A program made the translations under genes and the position numbers. DNA of 64,000 nucleotides, taken from contig JAGSHN010000025.1 of the NCBI GenBank assembly GCA_029855935.1, positions 1 through 64,000 on the forward strand. The letters are read 5' to 3'. Below the pieces are notes generated by a model. It had not been told where the DNA came from and did not search any database. It was given only the letters and a program-made list of their open reading frames with translations. Each line of letters opens with the position of its first letter. Within the stretch, counting starts at the first letter, position 1. This DNA comes from Candidatus Thorarchaeota archaeon (GTDB lineage Archaea; Asgardarchaeota; Thorarchaeia; Thorarchaeales; Thorarchaeaceae). Positions 1,535-11,049 of this stretch are shown here, piece by piece.

Positions 1535-2263
1535 GTGGTGAGAGATCTGTTGTATCTGATCGTCCTCGCAGCCGACGTAATCCTTCTCGCAGGCCTGGCG
1601 GTCAGCATCCTAGTACCGGAGCACCGTGTCTGGCCACCTCCCAAGAGGGAGTCTTGGCAGTACTGGACATCTCGGAACTTCATCACCATAGCCTCTGTCG
1701 GTGTTCCCGTACCGGGCATTCTCGACTGGAACTCGATGTGGATCTCTCACTGGGTCAGAATTCCCATCGCGATTGGTGTGATGATAGTCGCCAGTGCCAT
1801 CATCTACAAGGGCATCAAGACATTGAGCTATCACCAGAGCCTCGGACTAGAGGGCGAGCTTGTTGAGAGCGGGCCCTACCGATACTCAAGGAATCCCCAA
1901 TATGTCGGCCTGATACTGCCCTACGCCGCGAGCATATTGCTCACGAACTCGTACCTTGCTCTCATAGCCGGGGGCCTGCTCATCATTGTCTACGCTGTGA
2001 CCCCCCTCAGTGAGGAGCCGTGGCTGCCCGAGCGATACGGAGAGGCCTATGAGAGATACCGGCAACGTGTTACTCGGTATGTGGGGCGACCAAGAAACAA
2101 TGACAGTGAGCAGTACCACCGTGATGAGTCTGGAGATACTCGCACTGCAACGGATAGGCCTAACAGTGAGCGATGCCCTCCAATATCGTGGTATCATCAA
2201 CCTCGGCCGGCAGCAAAATGTCAATATTGTTGCTATCTGCATAGTTCAAGAAAACACTCGTGA
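1535..2263 (+). CDS. Isoprenylcysteine carboxyl methyltransferase (ICMT)-like membrane enzyme
   Basis: The first about 185 residues form a multi-pass membrane protein. They contain the family motif LVESGPYRYSRNPQYVGLIL, then a short hydrophobic hairpin and a second motif EEPWLPERYGEAYERY ending in a basic stretch. This is the SAM-binding C-terminal half typical of the ICMT/PEMT-like superfamily, which methylates small membrane-associated acceptors. The remaining about 55 residues are polar, low-complexity and unlike the family, and they run antisense into the convergent radical SAM gene (shared bases 2160-2263). The tail may therefore have been acquired when the A/T-rich island landed here. 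The start is GTG 1535 behind GGAGGG. Substrate is unknown. Confidence 0.8.
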   Translation: MVRDLLYLIVLAADVILLAGLAVSILVPEHRVWPPPKRESWQYWTSRNFITIASVGVPVPGILDWNSMWISHWVRIPIAIGVMIVASAIIYKGIKTLSYHQSLGLEGELVESGPYRYSRNPQYVGLILPYAASILLTNSYLALIAGGLLIIVYAVTPLSEEPWLPERYGEAYERYRQRVTRYVGRPRNNDSEQYHRDESGDTRTATDRPNSERCPPISWYHQPRPAAKCQYCCYLHSSRKHS

Positions 2264-3617
2264 TAATTGATGATTCTACTCTACTGTACGGGTCGACCAA
2301 GAAATCGTGATCCAGATTTCTCTGAACAGAATTTCTTGTGATTGGACAACCGAACGCCACGAATGGTAGAAAAGCCCTTGAGGACAACTTTGATAGTAGC
2401 TTTGAACCACTTTCAATTATCTCGTCAAGCGAGCTGAGGATACTTCCAAGACAGTATTCTTTGCTGCCAACAGATTCTGGGCATGAATAGATAGCCCCAT
2501 CGATTGAGATATGAAACATAACCACCCCTGCCAAACAACCGAAACTGTTTCTACAGACACTAGATGAGAAACCCGTTCTGCATAGCTGTAGAATGCTATC
2601 AATGGGCTCAATGCCAACTCTGCTATGGTATTGTGTTTTCAGTTCTGCCAAGGTCGAAATCGATTTTGCCCATGATTTCGCTGGCAGAAGTGTTCTAAAC
2701 CTATCTGTGGGGACTACTGGGACAAACGAAAACTTCTGAAGAGAATACTCCGAGACAAAATAATCAACCATTTCAGGTATTGTTTCAACATTAGCGGGAG
2801 TCACGACACATTGAACACTTATCTCTTCAGGTGCATAGAATCTAAGTAGATTATCAATGTTCTCAATTGCTCTTTTCGATGTTTCACCTCTCTGCTCTTG
2901 CTGGATTGCTCCGATACCATCAATACTGAGACCTAGCCGAATATCATGATCATATAGCAGTCTAACAGTCTTTGAGTCCAGCAAGGTCCCATTTGTTTGA
3001 ATTGACATTGTGAAATTGCTAGATCCAACAGCCGTTTCGATCGTCCTAAAGAGGGCAATCACTCGATTCAAACATAGAAGTGGTTCACCTCCATATGCTT
3101 GAATATGTAGTTGTTCATTAGGCCACTTGTTGTGGATCTTGGTTAGAAATTCTCCAATTGAGTCAATGGTACTATACTGTAGAACCCCCCTTTCGAAGCC
3201 CATATCTTGCAAGTGAGTGCGGGAACAGTATCTGCAAGCTAGATTACAATTGGTCGTAATGTCAATAACAATTTGCGAAACTCGCTGAATGGGAAAAAGT
3301 GGAGATCTATCAACCGTTGTGTTTTCCGATAGTCCTTTGCGGGTAAGATAATGAAAACCATAGTTGCTTAATACTACATCATAGTTTTCGTATGACCATT
3401 TTGCGAAAACATTGTCTTCGGGTAGATCAACTACGAGGTCTGAAAGCTTCGAATCCATTTTGAGGACTGAAACTATTGATTCAATATCAGCAGTTGGCAA
3501 GTTCTTCAGGCTTATGATTCTGTCTTTTACTAGATCGTAGATTCTCACACCAGATTTCGAAGAGAAAGTATATCTCAAGTCCGGACGTAGTATTGTCTTC
3601 AAGATATTCCCAACCAA
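2160..3617 (-). CDS. Radical SAM/SPASM-type peptide-modifying enzyme with N-terminal extension
   Basis: A 485-residue protein. The first about 110 residues resemble the leader-binding N-terminal regions of peptide maturases but are not a clear match. The radical SAM core follows, with the 4Fe-4S motif CNLACRYC (Cys 124, 128, 131), the SAM-binding GGEP box (176-179) and a conserved SIQTNGTLL strand. The C-terminal half has spaced cysteines (about 346, 355, 361, 379 and 389, in contexts such as CRNSFGC and YSCPE), as expected for a SPASM domain holding auxiliary clusters. Such enzymes install carbon-carbon or thioether crosslinks in ribosomal peptides. It sits one base behind the next radical SAM gene and downstream of a small Trp/Arg-rich peptide gene. 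Base composition is clearly more A/T-rich than the flanks, suggesting transfer. Confidence 0.85.
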   Translation of the reverse strand: MVGNILKTILRPDLRYTFSSKSGVRIYDLVKDRIISLKNLPTADIESIVSVLKMDSKLSDLVVDLPEDNVFAKWSYENYDVVLSNYGFHYLTRKGLSENTTVDRSPLFPIQRVSQIVIDITTNCNLACRYCSRTHLQDMGFERGVLQYSTIDSIGEFLTKIHNKWPNEQLHIQAYGGEPLLCLNRVIALFRTIETAVGSSNFTMSIQTNGTLLDSKTVRLLYDHDIRLGLSIDGIGAIQQEQRGETSKRAIENIDNLLRFYAPEEISVQCVVTPANVETIPEMVDYFVSEYSLQKFSFVPVVPTDRFRTLLPAKSWAKSISTLAELKTQYHSRVGIEPIDSILQLCRTGFSSSVCRNSFGCLAGVVMFHISIDGAIYSCPESVGSKEYCLGSILSSLDEIIESGSKLLSKLSSRAFLPFVAFGCPITRNSVQRNLDHDFLVDPYSRVESSIITSVFLNYADSNNIDILLPAEVDDTTILEGIAHC

Positions 3618-3618
3618 A

Positions 3619-4566
3619 CTAGGCCTTTATAGCTGAGATCTCAGATGTCCCGAAAACTTGTGCATAGCTGTTCCACATCCTCGGACAAGTATTCTGAACA
3701 ACGCACGAAGCACAAGCATCAGTATGTATGACCGAATCAAATTGGGAAAGAAAATCAACTCCCGTAGGTGTAATCAGAAGAGTATTCCCATCTGTAATCT
3801 CCTGCGCTGCCAGATATTTCCAATAGAAAGGATCGACTAAGCAAAGTGGAATCGTATTTATGGAAACAGGTAGCCCATATGACTCGCATCTGTCAATTGC
3901 TTGTTCAACCTTGGGAAGTGCATCGGTATACTTTATTCCAATCGTGTCCATGTATGAAAGGGCTCTTCCTGAATAGTCCACTCCGTAGAATCCAACAGAA
4001 ACACCGGGACAGCCAAATTCAGAGTGCACAAACTCAACAGAATCAAGTAGACCTTCAACTGTAGGCCTCATTAGTAGAAACTTCAAATGTACATTGAAAC
4101 CTCTTTCTAGCAACAATCTTATTCCCCTGATTCTTGACTGCCAACTGTTTGGCCTCATTGCGATTCCATTATGGACCTGTGAATGATGTGAGTAAAGGGT
4201 CACGAAGAAAACCGGAGATGCCGATGCCATTTTGAAAATCGTTTGAAGACGTTCAACTGTTGAGGAAGTCATAGTCTGGCTCGTCGTTGCAAACGTTATC
4301 GGTCTGAAACCCATTTGGAGAATATTCTGAATCAAGTGGTCAATGTCCGACCACAAGAAGGGCTCGCCACCGCTTATTTCAATTGGGATTTTCTGCGGTT
4401 CAAGTTTCATTTTGGAGACAAAATATGTTAGCCTATCTACAACACGTTCGATACTTGTGGAATCAGAATGATTTGACAATGGACAATTCAAGCACCTATT
4501 GATACAGTGAAAAGTCGGAGCAATATAGACATTCGAAACATCACTGTTTTGAACTGTCCAATTCAC
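3619..4566 (-). CDS. Second radical SAM peptide-modifying enzyme
   Basis: About 315 residues. The 4Fe-4S motif is CINRCLNC (Cys 21, 25, 28) and the SAM-binding box is SGGEP (about 65-69). The C-terminus carries CASCVVQNTC, a short SPASM/twitch-like cysteine cluster. I start it at GTG 4566 because GGAGG lies nine bases upstream; the frame is open to a TTG at 4596. It is the first enzyme gene after the 46-residue peptide gene ending at 4606, with only 39 bases between, and the larger radical SAM gene follows after one base. The arrangement peptide, radical SAM, radical SAM is the layout of RiPP operons. Which enzyme modifies which residue cannot be told from sequence. Confidence 0.82.
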   Translation of the reverse strand: MNWTVQNSDVSNVYIAPTFHCINRCLNCPLSNHSDSTSIERVVDRLTYFVSKMKLEPQKIPIEISGGEPFLWSDIDHLIQNILQMGFRPITFATTSQTMTSSTVERLQTIFKMASASPVFFVTLYSHHSQVHNGIAMRPNSWQSRIRGIRLLLERGFNVHLKFLLMRPTVEGLLDSVEFVHSEFGCPGVSVGFYGVDYSGRALSYMDTIGIKYTDALPKVEQAIDRCESYGLPVSINTIPLCLVDPFYWKYLAAQEITDGNTLLITPTGVDFLSQFDSVIHTDACASCVVQNTCPRMWNSYAQVFGTSEISAIKA

Positions 4567-4605
4567 ATGTGAGGTCCTCCGGAAAGATACTATCAATTCA
4601 TCTTG

Positions 4606-4746
4606 CTAGTTTGGTCCTCTACTCCAGCGACTCCATCTGTTCCAGCCAGTATGACCAAAAGCCTCTTTTCCAATTCTTGCTAGTTCGGTTATCTCTATTT
4701 CAATATCGGATCCAATTCTCTTGCTATACACCCTTATTTTGGCCAT
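4606..4746 (-). CDS. Candidate RiPP precursor peptide with three Trp-x-Arg triplets
   Basis: An unlisted 46-codon frame from ATG 4746 (alternative GTG 4731) to TAG 4606. The N-terminal two thirds look like a leader, helical and charged (IEIEITELARIGKEAF). The C-terminus is GWNRWSRWSRGPN, that is WNR-WSR-WSR in direct succession. Three-residue aromatic-x-X motifs are the substrates of radical SAM enzymes that form cyclophanes (triceptide and darobactin-type chemistry), in which the Trp ring is joined to the beta-carbon of the third residue. The gene is directly upstream of two radical SAM/SPASM-type genes on the same strand. Small size, leader-core layout and context support the call, but no homologue search was possible. 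Confidence 0.68.
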   Translation of the reverse strand: MAKIRVYSKRIGSDIEIEITELARIGKEAFGHTGWNRWSRWSRGPN

Positions 4747-5044
4747 CCAACCACCCACAAGCAGGTCCTAACCCGCATCATTCTCCTCCGCAGATAAAAA
4801 TCTTTTCAGGATTCCCGTTCAGTAGAAGAGCCATACGCTAGATATGCACTTCACTGTCTTGTGGCCTCTCCAATGCGTATATCGAATTTGATTGCGACCA
4901 AACCCAATCAGACAGTTTTCCAGTGTGGCTTTGAATCTGACAAGAACTCAACTCAATCTACTTCTACTCGTATTCTATCCTTCTGGGGAGTTCAAATTGT
5001 CCTGAATCGTCGAACTAGATTGCCAAATCCATGCAGCAACTTAC
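4747..5044 (-). promoter_or_regulatory. Leader region of the putative RiPP operon
   Basis: On the minus strand a GATTTTTATC TATA-like box (4793-4802) precedes the peptide gene by about 50 bases. That would give a transcript start near 4771 and a short leader. A GGAGG (4785-4789) stands before ATGATG at 4781, opening a 15-codon frame that ends at 4734, overlapping the precursor start; it could be a coupling leader peptide or chance. The rest shows many stops in all frames and no recognisable gene. Confidence 0.4.
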
Positions 5045-5248
5045 TCATGTTCGGTAATCAGTAATCCAGCCTAGTTCTGCTTGATAACTCGTACAAGCGT
5101 CGTTGGTTGGGCAATTATTGCAACTTGGATTTGAGTCGTTCTTGTAGTACTTCAAACCCATGTACGCAAGTCCATCATCATGAGATTGCCCCATGGTACA
5201 GGGTACGTCCAAGAATACCTCCGCTTGCTCCTTGATCTCAATCTCCAC
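5045..5248 (-). CDS. Small cysteine-rich protein or SPASM remnant upstream of the radical SAM pair
   Basis: A 67-residue frame from GTG 5248 on the same strand as the radical SAM genes. It has four cysteines, three of them clustered as SCNNCPTNDACTSY near the C-terminus. That spacing resembles the CASCVVQNTC tail of the neighbouring radical SAM enzyme, so this may be the orphaned C-terminus of a decayed SPASM enzyme. Alternatively it is a second modified-peptide precursor, since cysteine-rich cores are common. No Shine-Dalgarno site precedes the GTG and an in-frame stop lies about 20 codons upstream. I cannot decide between the two readings, nor exclude a chance frame. Confidence 0.4.
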   Translation of the reverse strand: MEIEIKEQAEVFLDVPCTMGQSHDDGLAYMGLKYYKNDSNPSCNNCPTNDACTSYQAELGWITDYRT

Positions 5249-5360
5249 AATTGTGGGTCGAATGGAGGCAGTACAACACGTTGTATGCTTATTACCTCGA
5301 CTATGTCAAATATACTCAATATATTTGTTATAGAAAACAGGAGGGTCGATTCTGATAGAG

Positions 5361-5603
5361 ATGACGACGATTGCAATCAAAGAGAGCACCCGAAGAGAAC
5401 TCATTCGAATCGCAGGAGAGATTCAGAGAAGAACAAGAGAACGCGTTGACTTCGATACGGTCATCCGCTTTCTGATAGAGGCATATGAAAAGGACAAGAT
5501 CAACCTCAATGCGTGGCAACGTTTTCTTGAGCCCATCCCCGGCGCAGACTTTGAGTCCCTGTATCTTGAGTTGATGGCGGAGCGTCGTTCTGATGAGCGG
5601 TGA
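5361..5603 (+). CDS. VapB-like antitoxin
   Basis: An 80-residue protein starting with a short beta strand, MTTIAIKESTRRELIRIA, then a helix-turn-helix-like stretch. This is the ribbon-helix-helix/AbrB-like DNA-binding front end of many VapB antitoxins. The charged C-terminal half (ending AERRSDER) would wrap the toxin. It overlaps the downstream PIN-domain gene by 11 bases, the normal arrangement of type II toxin-antitoxin pairs, and probably represses its own promoter as a complex with the toxin. An A/T-rich TATA-like stretch (about 5317-5326) precedes it. Function is inferred mainly from the partner gene. Confidence 0.75.
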   Translation: MTTIAIKESTRRELIRIAGEIQRRTRERVDFDTVIRFLIEAYEKDKINLNAWQRFLEPIPGADFESLYLELMAERRSDER

Positions 5604-6021
5604 GAAAAGAAAAGTGACAGTATTGGATGCTGGAGTATTGCTGGCCCTTGCTCTGGGTGAGCCTGCTGCAAAGGGACTGGGAGCGGAGATCGGAAAAGGT
5701 GAGAAGCTCTTTGCGTGTACCGAACTGGGGTTGTGCGAGCTTTTGTATGTCCTCTGTAGAAGAATCGGGTGGAGAAAGGCAAAGAGGAAGTTACATCTGC
5801 TGATCAAATCATCGACAGTACGATTCATTCCTACGAGTGCTCTTTGGTTGGAATCGGCAAGGATCAAGTGCAAGGTGCCAATTGCACTGCCCGATTGTCT
5901 TATCATTGCCGCAGCCAGAGTAACTAGAGGGATTGCACTCTTTGCTCGAAGAGAGAAAGAGATTGCAAATGCAGTAGAGAGAGGGCAGCTCAAAGAGAAC
6001 ATAGCGTTTCTAGATCTCTGA
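5593..6021 (+). CDS. VapC-like PIN-domain ribonuclease toxin
   Basis: A 142-residue PIN-domain protein. The first acidic residue is in VLDAGVLLAL (Asp12), the second in TELGLCELLYVL (Glu49) and the third in ALPDCLIIAAA. The usual fourth acidic position is occupied by basic residues in LFARREKEI, which is a departure from the canonical site. PIN toxins cut RNA, frequently tRNA or rRNA, with Mg2+ or Mn2+ held by these acids. The 11-base overlap with the preceding small gene gives translational coupling to its antitoxin. Composition is slightly more A/T-rich than the flanking genes, consistent with a mobile pair next to the radical SAM island. Confidence 0.82.
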   Translation: MSGEKRKVTVLDAGVLLALALGEPAAKGLGAEIGKGEKLFACTELGLCELLYVLCRRIGWRKAKRKLHLLIKSSTVRFIPTSALWLESARIKCKVPIALPDCLIIAAARVTRGIALFARREKEIANAVERGQLKENIAFLDL

Positions 6022-9253: not shown

Positions 9254-9787
9254 TCAACATCGTTGATAGTCCAAGAATCGTCTGACAAAATATCTTAGGG
9301 ACTCGTTATTGCGACAGCCGAGCTGCAAATCGAATTGATCAAGAAGGGATATCATGAATTCTGTCGGTGTCATGCCAGGCGGGCATACGCGTTCAAACTG
9401 CTCCTTTGTCGCATAGTTCTTGCTATCAATCAATGAGGCACCAACTTCCTTCAGCCAAGATGTGGTGACGCCAGCAAGATACCAGCTCTCAATCTCATAT
9501 TTCACTCCGACAAACCTACGACGATTCAGTTCAAACGGATATTGTCGGTTGATGCTATCGAACCGACCAGAGTAGCAGGGAACCCAGTCCAAGTCACGCA
9601 CAAAGATGTAGTCGCCAGTCCTATCCGCACTACGAAGATGACCGACGACCCTCTTCTTAGTCAATTGAGCGTATTTCACGAAACGAACCGAGTACTTTTG
9701 TTCAAGTAGCGGCTTCAAGAGTCGCTGAAAGAATCTCTGATCATCGACACCCTCTACAAATATCGTCAATCGTTTCTTCGAGATCAC
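9254..9787 (-). CDS. TOPRIM-fold protein (DUF4276/RloB-like), probable defence nuclease
   Basis: A 177-residue protein. It opens with the TOPRIM glutamate motif LTIFVEGVDDQRFF (Glu12), has a second motif VRDLDW with two aspartates (64, 66), and a YEIESWYLAG stretch similar to the conserved EWESWxLAD segment of DUF4276 proteins. TOPRIM proteins of this size are often encoded with an AAA ATPase in OLD-, RloAB-, AbiL- and PARIS-like defence systems, where the ATPase senses phage and the TOPRIM part cuts nucleic acid. Its ATG overlaps the stop of the ATPase gene as ATGA, so the two are translationally coupled. Which system it belongs to is not settled. Confidence 0.7.
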   Translation of the reverse strand: MISKKRLTIFVEGVDDQRFFQRLLKPLLEQKYSVRFVKYAQLTKKRVVGHLRSADRTGDYIFVRDLDWVPCYSGRFDSINRQYPFELNRRRFVGVKYEIESWYLAGVTTSWLKEVGASLIDSKNYATKEQFERVCPPGMTPTEFMISLLDQFDLQLGCRNNESLRYFVRRFLDYQRC

Positions 9788-11049
9788 TCCAAGAGCCCCT
9801 GAACGTAGAGATCTTCAACTCCAAGGTCTTCATTGAGGAACATCCGAACATCCTCGCTGTCCGCAGGACGTTCCACCGTAGAGAAGCCCTCCTCGTTCCT
9901 CCGAACGAGTAGGAGATTCTCAAGCGGGGTATATCGGACAAACTCAGGATTATGCGTGGTGACTATAATCTGGTAATGCCTCCGGCTCGTAACATCCTGC
10001 ATAAAACGGACGATATTCCCGATTAGGGCAGGATGGATGTTGCGTTCAGGCTCTTCGAAGAACAGTACTTTCTTTCTCTCGAAGTACAGAGCAACAATCA
10101 TCGCAGTGATGGCCACGGTCCCGTCGGACAACAAGAAGGATGGTAGTGTATGCCCATCAAAGTAACTCTCCTCCATCATTGTCAGGAGTGTGCCGTCGGG
10201 AAGATTCTCAACAGATACGTTGCGAATGAAAGGAAGAACATCCCCAATGAGGAATATGAGCCTCTTTTTCTGTCGCGGGTCACTGACAATCTGCTTCAGC
10301 CTGATTGCGAGATTTCGACCATCAGGCTCAAGTTCAGCCATTCCTGTCGCAGAAGCTGTACGTTTGCAGGTATGAGAGTCTATGTCGAAAGTGGCTGTGC
10401 TTCTGAAAAACTGATCAAACGGGATTAGTAATGGTGAGAACAAGGCTGTGTGCTCAATGATTGAGAACTTCCGCCATCCAAGTTCTTCGGACAGCGGTTC
10501 TCGCAATACAAGTTCTTTCAATCCTTTGCTTTCAAATACTGCTCTAAGCTCTTGGGGCACTTCGGATGAAATGTGGCCACGATCATTGCTTACAACAACA
10601 GTGCCTTTCGCCAGTTCCTCGACAGGGGTATCCTCACTTCCAAACGGCATTTCTGTGAAGAGATCACATTGGATTTCAGCTCGTTCGCTGACGCTATACT
10701 CCTGCTCACTGTCACCAAGTCCCAATCGAAGCTCGTAAGAGAGGGTACTGATTCGAATGCCAATGCCCTTATCGGGGATACTGATTGTTCCCAGATCTCG
10801 AAGTGTGATTCCAATGACTACCTCGCTGTCAGGGTCACATCCGATAGTGCGAAGATACGAGAAGCCGCCCTGAATTGAGATCGCGTTGTCGATGCCGTGA
10901 GTAGCGGCGTCTTTCAAGAACTTGACTACGGTCACTAGGTTTGATTTGCCTGAGGCATTTGCTCCAATTATCACATTGAATTCTCTCAGACTAACCGATA
11001 CGTCCGCGAAGTTCTTGAAATTGACAAGCCGAATACTAGATATATGCAA
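9784..11049 (-). CDS. AAA (ABC-like) ATPase of a TOPRIM-paired defence module
   Basis: A 421-residue SMC/OLD-type ATPase. It starts with the family's MHISSIRLVNFKNF, then Walker A GANASGKS (29-36), a variant signature LSDGT (about 307-311), Walker B KVLFFEEPERNIHP (about 327-340) and the switch histidine in VTTHNPEF (about 366). There is no long coiled coil between the two halves, so it belongs with the AAA_15/AAA_21 group rather than with SMC proteins. With the coupled TOPRIM gene it forms a two-gene unit typical of anti-phage systems. Base composition is a little more A/T-rich than the surface protein gene upstream. The trigger is unknown. Confidence 0.8.
   Translation of the reverse strand: MHISSIRLVNFKNFADVSVSLREFNVIIGANASGKSNLVTVVKFLKDAATHGIDNAISIQGGFSYLRTIGCDPDSEVVIGITLRDLGTISIPDKGIGIRISTLSYELRLGLGDSEQEYSVSERAEIQCDLFTEMPFGSEDTPVEELAKGTVVVSNDRGHISSEVPQELRAVFESKGLKELVLREPLSEELGWRKFSIIEHTALFSPLLIPFDQFFRSTATFDIDSHTCKRTASATGMAELEPDGRNLAIRLKQIVSDPRQKKRLIFLIGDVLPFIRNVSVENLPDGTLLTMMEESYFDGHTLPSFLLSDGTVAITAMIVALYFERKKVLFFEEPERNIHPALIGNIVRFMQDVTSRRHYQIIVTTHNPEFVRYTPLENLLLVRRNEEGFSTVERPADSEDVRMFLNEDLGVEDLYVQGLLE

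Follow-up and report, generated by a model that had tools for sequence, protein, structure and literature searches.

How should one read a short open reading frame that ends in three consecutive Trp-x-Arg triplets and stands directly in front of two genes for radical S-adenosylmethionine (SAM) enzymes? This question is raised by contig JAGSHN010000025.1 of a Candidatus Thorarchaeota archaeon (source genome of 2.97 Mb), of which the first 64,000 nucleotides, referred to here as the window, were analysed. A frame of 46 codons, opening with ATG at 4746 and translated as MAKIRVYSKRIGSDIEIEITELARIGKEAFGHTGWNRWSRWSRGPN, is followed by genes encoding a 325-residue enzyme (enzyme 1) and a 485-residue enzyme (enzyme 2), both of which match the Pfam family Radical_SAM; all three genes lie on the minus strand within one block of low GC content (Table 1). 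There is good reason to regard this cassette as specifying a ribosomally synthesized and post-translationally modified peptide (RiPP), with the 46-residue peptide as the likely substrate of the enzymes and its W-x-R block as probably the site of modification. For the product itself the chances of a cyclophane are about even, and the best overall explanation, a RiPP cassette forming Trp-Arg cyclophanes, is held with the same evenly divided confidence.

The W-x-R motif and its position are non-random. When the 600 nucleotides upstream of enzyme 1 were shuffled 20,000 times with dinucleotides preserved, a triple W-x-R repeat never arose and a double one arose in 27 shuffles. The triplets use differing Arg codons (AGA, CGC and AGA), which marks the repeat as one of residues and not a simple DNA repeat. 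Relatives of the cassette were sought in 228 genomes of the host phylum, congeners included, and there the DNA pattern for three triplets occurs at about the frequency of a reversed control and is thus not rare genome-wide; none of 20 other such sites read in these genomes encodes the motif in a frame of at least 30 amino acids, and none adjoins a radical SAM gene.

The reading frames are closely packed. The sequence GGGTGG (4756-4751) lies four bases 5' of the peptide ATG, and no signal peptide was seen in the putative leader, residues 1-34. Enzyme 1 was listed from a TTG at 4596, which gives 325 residues; an alternative GTG at 4566, giving about 315 residues, is more likely to be its start, judging from the GGAGG placed before it (4580-4576). 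This GTG stands 39 nucleotides past the peptide stop, and enzyme 2 starts 1 nucleotide past the stop of enzyme 1. Such gaps suggest operon-like packing, as in a single transcript. Together with the frames and the Pfam matches, they bear out the first-pass annotation of this DNA, which had placed a 46-codon frame just before two radical SAM genes. A short precursor frame beside a radical SAM enzyme of the peptide-maturase type, the general mark of radical SAM RiPP systems, is present.

Table 1. Features of the cassette and of the block that holds it, in window positions
Feature	Position	Strand	Basis
Putative precursor peptide gene, 46 codons	4606..4746	minus	Reading frame, ribosome-binding-site-like GGGTGG, shuffle test; no database match
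Putative leader, residues 1-34, ending ...FGHTG	4645..4746	minus	Translation; leader role inferred
Putative core, W35-N36-R37-W38-S39-R40-W41-S42-R43, then G-P-N and stop	4618..4644	minus	Translation
Radical SAM enzyme 1 (325 residues), HxsC-like core, one Twitch-type auxiliary cluster	3619..4566 (from TTG: 4596)	minus	Pfam, NCBIfam, AlphaFold2, Foldseek
Radical SAM enzyme 2 (485 residues), SPASM-like peptide-maturase type	2160..3617	minus	Pfam, NCBIfam, PDB matches, cysteine list
Putative promoter of the peptide gene, TATA-like element ATTTTTAT, near 4795-4801	4793..4802	minus	Read by eye, about 50 nucleotides before the peptide ATG
Low-GC block holding the cassette	2105..5450		GC profile; left edge at a methyltransferase gene's 3' end, right edge diffuse

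A further frame of 15 residues, MMRVRTCLWVVGWPK (4734-4781, minus), has its own GGAGGAG and extends, in a different reading phase, into the beginning of the peptide gene; it is possibly a leader or a product of chance.

Sequence and modelled fold together argue strongly that enzyme 2 is closer to maturases of peptides and proteins than to radical SAM enzymes acting on small molecules. Its best NCBIfam profiles are PapB (107.5 bits, cut-off 340), a nif11 maturase (79 bits) and a QhpD-type quinohemoprotein maturase (77 bits), followed by anaerobic sulfatase maturase (AnSME, 76 bits), CbpB (76 bits) and the cyclophane-forming YhhB (74.2 bits). By sequence, its closest solved relatives in the PDB are AnSME, ChlB and CteB. 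In the fold search every one of the top 17 matches modifies peptides or proteins, and CteB, AnSME, ChlB, TigE and SkfB all come ahead of any small-molecule enzyme. Of the SPASM motif the protein keeps C355-x5-C361-x12-G-x4-C379; it also has C424.

For enzyme 1 the same resemblance is suggested by weaker indications. The best NCBIfam profile is HxsC (TIGR03977) at 93 bits against a cut-off of 267.9, the next best reaching 42 bits, and among the plasmid matches listed by tblastn those that are annotated are HxsC proteins with 24-25% identity. The radical SAM cysteines C31, C35 and C38 align with those of HxsC, as do four Twitch-like auxiliary cysteines (C252, C295, C298 and C304 in the numbering of the 325-residue form). 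Its AlphaFold2 model is confident, with a predicted local distance difference test (pLDDT) score of 85.9, and the top PDB matches found by Foldseek are the RiPP maturases SkfB and SuiB. A deltaproteobacterial protein (locus L099, 87 bits) was considered as kin of enzyme 1 and rejected: the match is to one domain of a multi-radical-SAM protein, which stands beside a carbamoyltransferase-like frame and has no such peptide. The first-pass annotation had named a clustering of the two enzymes with families acting on non-peptide substrates as a result that would refute it; profiles and folds favour peptide or protein maturases instead, less firmly for enzyme 1. Its description of both as SPASM-type holds in part, since the Radical_SAM domain and partial SPASM/Twitch cysteines are present, whereas enzyme 2 lacks the Cx2Cx5Cx3C element and enzyme 1 has only the four Twitch-like cysteines.

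The chemistry proposed for the triplets has close precedents in bacteria, among the triceptides. XncB joins Trp C6 to the C-beta of an Arg or Asn two positions on (i to i+2), and YhhB joins Tyr C3 or His C2 to the C-beta of Arg with the same spacing (reviewed in PMC11002830). These cases, with Arg among the residues joined, agree with the earlier statement that SPASM enzymes link Trp or another aromatic residue to the third residue of a triplet, and in view of XncB a Trp-x-Arg ring would be known chemistry. By analogy, the Trp C6-Arg C-beta geometry from i to i+2 would fit the triplets of the peptide exactly. As in the triceptide systems of XncB, OscB, MscB and YhhB, a short precursor with aromatic-x-residue triplets (here W-N-R, W-S-R and W-S-R, residues 35-43) stands beside a radical SAM gene; the cassette differs from them in having two radical SAM enzymes, an incomplete SPASM, three equally spaced Trp-x-Arg triplets and an archaeal genome as its setting. 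In the W-S-K triplet of darobactin a radical SAM enzyme forms a C-C bond between Trp and the basic residue (PMC9055067). This triplet, the substrate of DarE, is comparable to the W-S-R of the cassette; no DarE family profile is among the 25 best profiles listed. In darobactin a single enzyme produces fused rings and a Trp-Trp ether, whereas the cassette has two radical SAM enzymes. A further likeness lies in the fold of enzyme 1, best matched by SkfB and by SuiB, the streptide enzyme, which makes a Trp-Lys bond; enzyme 1 differs from both in sequence (14-17% identity) and in having no N-terminal RiPP recognition element (RRE).

In the mechanism that we propose, a small RiPP cassette acquired horizontally would supply a precursor peptide together with two radical SAM maturases. 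Both enzymes would be recruited by the leader to the C-terminal core; there, a radical formed on the C-beta of each Arg would bond with the indole of the Trp that stands two positions earlier. As many as three consecutive cyclophanes of three residues, each linking Trp to Arg, would result, with 2 Da lost per ring. Enzyme 2 would be the likelier cross-linker, with enzyme 1 as a partner that takes part in the modification or carries it further; the two could share the triplets, act in sequence or install different changes. No exporter or protease gene lies within the low-GC block, and for this reason the product might be released by host functions or stay intracellular. If correct, this explanation would mean that an aromatic-ring-forming radical SAM peptide has been brought into an archaeal genome, and that two enzymes partly lacking SPASM can form consecutive Trp-Arg rings from a compact three-gene cassette; the cassette might then also serve as a convenient model for the Hxs (His-Xaa-Ser) systems, which are uncharacterised. 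The exact triple Trp-x-Arg repeat in an Asgard setting had been thought possibly new at the first pass: the Trp-Arg cross-link is already known from XncB, and what is new is the peptide and its pairing with the enzymes, found in no other genome searched.

Several results weigh against the Trp-Arg cyclophane explanation. Both enzymes score below the cut-offs of all curated NCBIfam families, those of known cyclophane-forming enzymes included (YhhB 74.2 bits with a cut-off of 445, DynA 61, AmcB 60 and FxsB 56 bits). The characterised triceptide enzymes contain SPASM (PMC11002830), and neither cassette enzyme has a full SPASM domain with two auxiliary clusters; the complete seven-cysteine motif is absent from both, and from enzyme 2 its Cx2Cx5Cx3C half is missing. 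The model of enzyme 2 is of low confidence (mean pLDDT 58.6, below 50 at the N-terminus), being good only in the barrel, and it was built on an alignment of HxsB rows that may bias the fold matches, so that the agreement between sequence and fold is not fully independent for this enzyme. No RRE was detected by profile or PDB match in its N-terminal 112 residues, of which the first 110 or so are drawn as strands followed by helices at a pLDDT of 28-44. For enzyme 1, viperin and MoaA also match the model well, closely behind SkfB and SuiB. Finally, no homologous cassette was found, and hence there is neither conservation of the W-x-R triplets nor co-variation of peptide and enzymes to draw upon.

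A different change on the W-x-R block, within what would still be a RiPP cassette, is possible though doubtful; candidates are epimerisation, C-beta hydroxylation, a link between triplets or between Trp residues, or a change of the kind made in His-Xaa-Ser (Hxs) systems. The structural matches include SkfB- and EpeE-type folds, the SPASM cysteines are incomplete, and a literature search found no report of the chemistry of HxsA products. Further arguments for such a change come from the Hxs systems themselves, whose HxsC loci were gathered from genomes, plasmids and viral contigs for comparison. Both the cassette and these systems have two neighbouring radical SAM genes, and one enzyme of the cassette finds its best profile in HxsC and possesses all four of its auxiliary cysteines. 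The HxsA cores, GHRSHSSHRSHSSH, place an aromatic residue at every third position from a Gly-His, and the cassette peptide, with G-H-T-G-W-N-R-W-S-R-W-S-R, has the same period-3 spacing from its own Gly-His. Against this reading stand the Trp C6-Arg C-beta precedent, which fits the triplets, and the position of both enzymes outside the Hxs clades: in the trees, enzyme 1 falls outside the HxsC rows (branch 99/96, with long branches and an unsure placement) and the HxsB clade excludes enzyme 2 (100/99, again with long branches).

The cassette is accordingly not a His-Xaa-Ser system. A divergent Hxs system, suggested by the HxsC profile and the plasmid matches, was ruled out by the trees, by family cut-offs (enzyme 2 scores 60.6 bits with HxsB, TIGR03978, for a cut-off of 370), by the failure to recognise an HxsD-like frame between positions 1 and 12000, and by the gene order, which is A-C-B in the cassette and D-B-C-A in Hxs operons. 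The repeats are Trp-x-Arg in the one and His-x-Ser in the other, and the 46-residue peptide without a signal sequence differs from HxsA, which mostly has about 200 residues (85-350 seen). The trees made in answer to the first-pass call for a phylogeny place both enzymes outside HxsB and HxsC, and neither enzyme could be assigned to a characterised family that forms three-residue cyclophanes. By analogy, the cassette may share the repeat logic of Hxs systems without belonging to them. That it represents a separate archaeal class of radical SAM peptides, in which an HxsC-like enzyme of the Twitch type, teamed with a maturase that has half of SPASM, would form tandem Trp-x-Arg rings on a peptide with the Hxs period-3 aromatic logic and Gly-His start, we regard as unlikely; if true, such a class would suggest what Hxs maturases do.

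Some of the Hxs loci deserve mention in their own right. The only genuine HxsB/HxsC pair among the 228 phylum genomes stands at a contig end (L022, G148:C358), its HxsC scoring 348.6 bits, above the cut-off. On a Mesorhizobium plasmid (L071, 5947-8858) an hxs operon is followed by genes for a patatin-like phospholipase, a CD-NTase and a ThiF-type protein, a defence set resembling a cyclic oligonucleotide-based antiphage signalling system (CBASS). A contig binned as Candidatus Nanosynbacter (L162) has an hxs operon; in the tree its HxsC clusters with that of a Desulfuromonadaceae genome, and the contig is probably misbinned. Short HxsA-like peptides of 85-91 residues were seen at L103 (5939-6202), L162 (4217-4474) and L150 (2601-2876); they end in His-x-Ser repeats, whereas the usual HxsA of about 200 residues has a long C-terminal part.

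A reading in which the short frame is no gene at all, or has no connection with the enzymes, and the latter are orphan radical SAM proteins with another function, viperin-like or on small molecules, is decidedly improbable. In favour of this view, the searches made found no database match or relative of the peptide, and a viperin profile matches both enzymes weakly (61 and 26 bits). Apart from the source, none of the 228 phylum genomes holds anything closely related to the peptide or to one of the enzymes; a search with the enzymes gave one weak SPASM protein (L168) without a peptide. Weak matches to the peptide in the phylum have E values of 0.003 or worse per genome, which is the level of chance over 228 genomes, and none of the four read as possible precursors was one, the single match with W-S-R-W having no open frame. 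No relative of enzyme 1 appeared in the genomes of 84,980 species, scanned by short stretches in a manner that sees close relatives only. Searches of phages, plasmids and viruses returned nothing close to the cassette, and viral contigs queried with both enzymes gave nothing. The first-pass test, whether related genomes keep the frame or its triplets, turned up no such relative and on this outcome speaks neither for nor against the RiPP reading. The orphan view is opposed by the absence of a triple W-x-R from all shuffles, by the frame having its own ribosome-binding site, and, for enzyme 2, by peptide-maturase profiles outscoring viperin (107 against 52 bits). Identity with viperin (pVip) was rejected at 52 bits for enzyme 2 and 22.5 bits for enzyme 1, with a cut-off of 180. 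Conversion of the peptide into a cofactor or another small molecule, as in the pyrroloquinoline quinone (PQQ) or mycofactocin pathways, which also have a short peptide before radical SAM genes, is very unlikely even though PqqE is among the weaker matches of the enzyme 1 alignment profile, given that no other pathway genes and no PqqD-like gene are present, that a repeated motif would be superfluous for a single-site cofactor, and that other profiles score better than PqqE and MftC.

Whatever the product of the cassette, the block that holds it is foreign in composition, and this composition would fit horizontal acquisition. The block spans about 3.2 kb. Near position 2150 the GC content drops from about 0.57 to 0.45, and as far as about 5450 it remains close to 0.42, within surroundings of about 56-57%; the first-pass remark that the block is A/T-rich and looks transferred is supported by this contrast of about 42% with about 56%. 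At the left edge, the similarity of the methyltransferase gene to its congener copy ends at 2104 while the frame continues into the block to 2263, which fits an insertion. An empty site in congeners could not be demonstrated, as the flanks are not syntenic in relatives. Within the block, a 67-residue frame (5045-5248, minus) matches the iron-sulphur cluster region of MutY weakly (16 bits) and is possibly a gene remnant. Directly adjoining the low-GC block, a PIN-domain gene and an overlapping preceding frame of 80 residues (5361-6021, plus) show a VapBC toxin-antitoxin-like arrangement.

Elsewhere in the window, genes for CDC48 and Roadblock/LC7 proteins fit an Asgard host without proving it. 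Further from the cassette, an AAA ATPase of 421 residues and a small partner of 177 residues (9254-11049, minus) show a likeness in PADLOC to HEC-01A/HEC-01B, a pair of candidate defence proteins, with 150 bits for the ATPase and a weak 17 bits for the partner.

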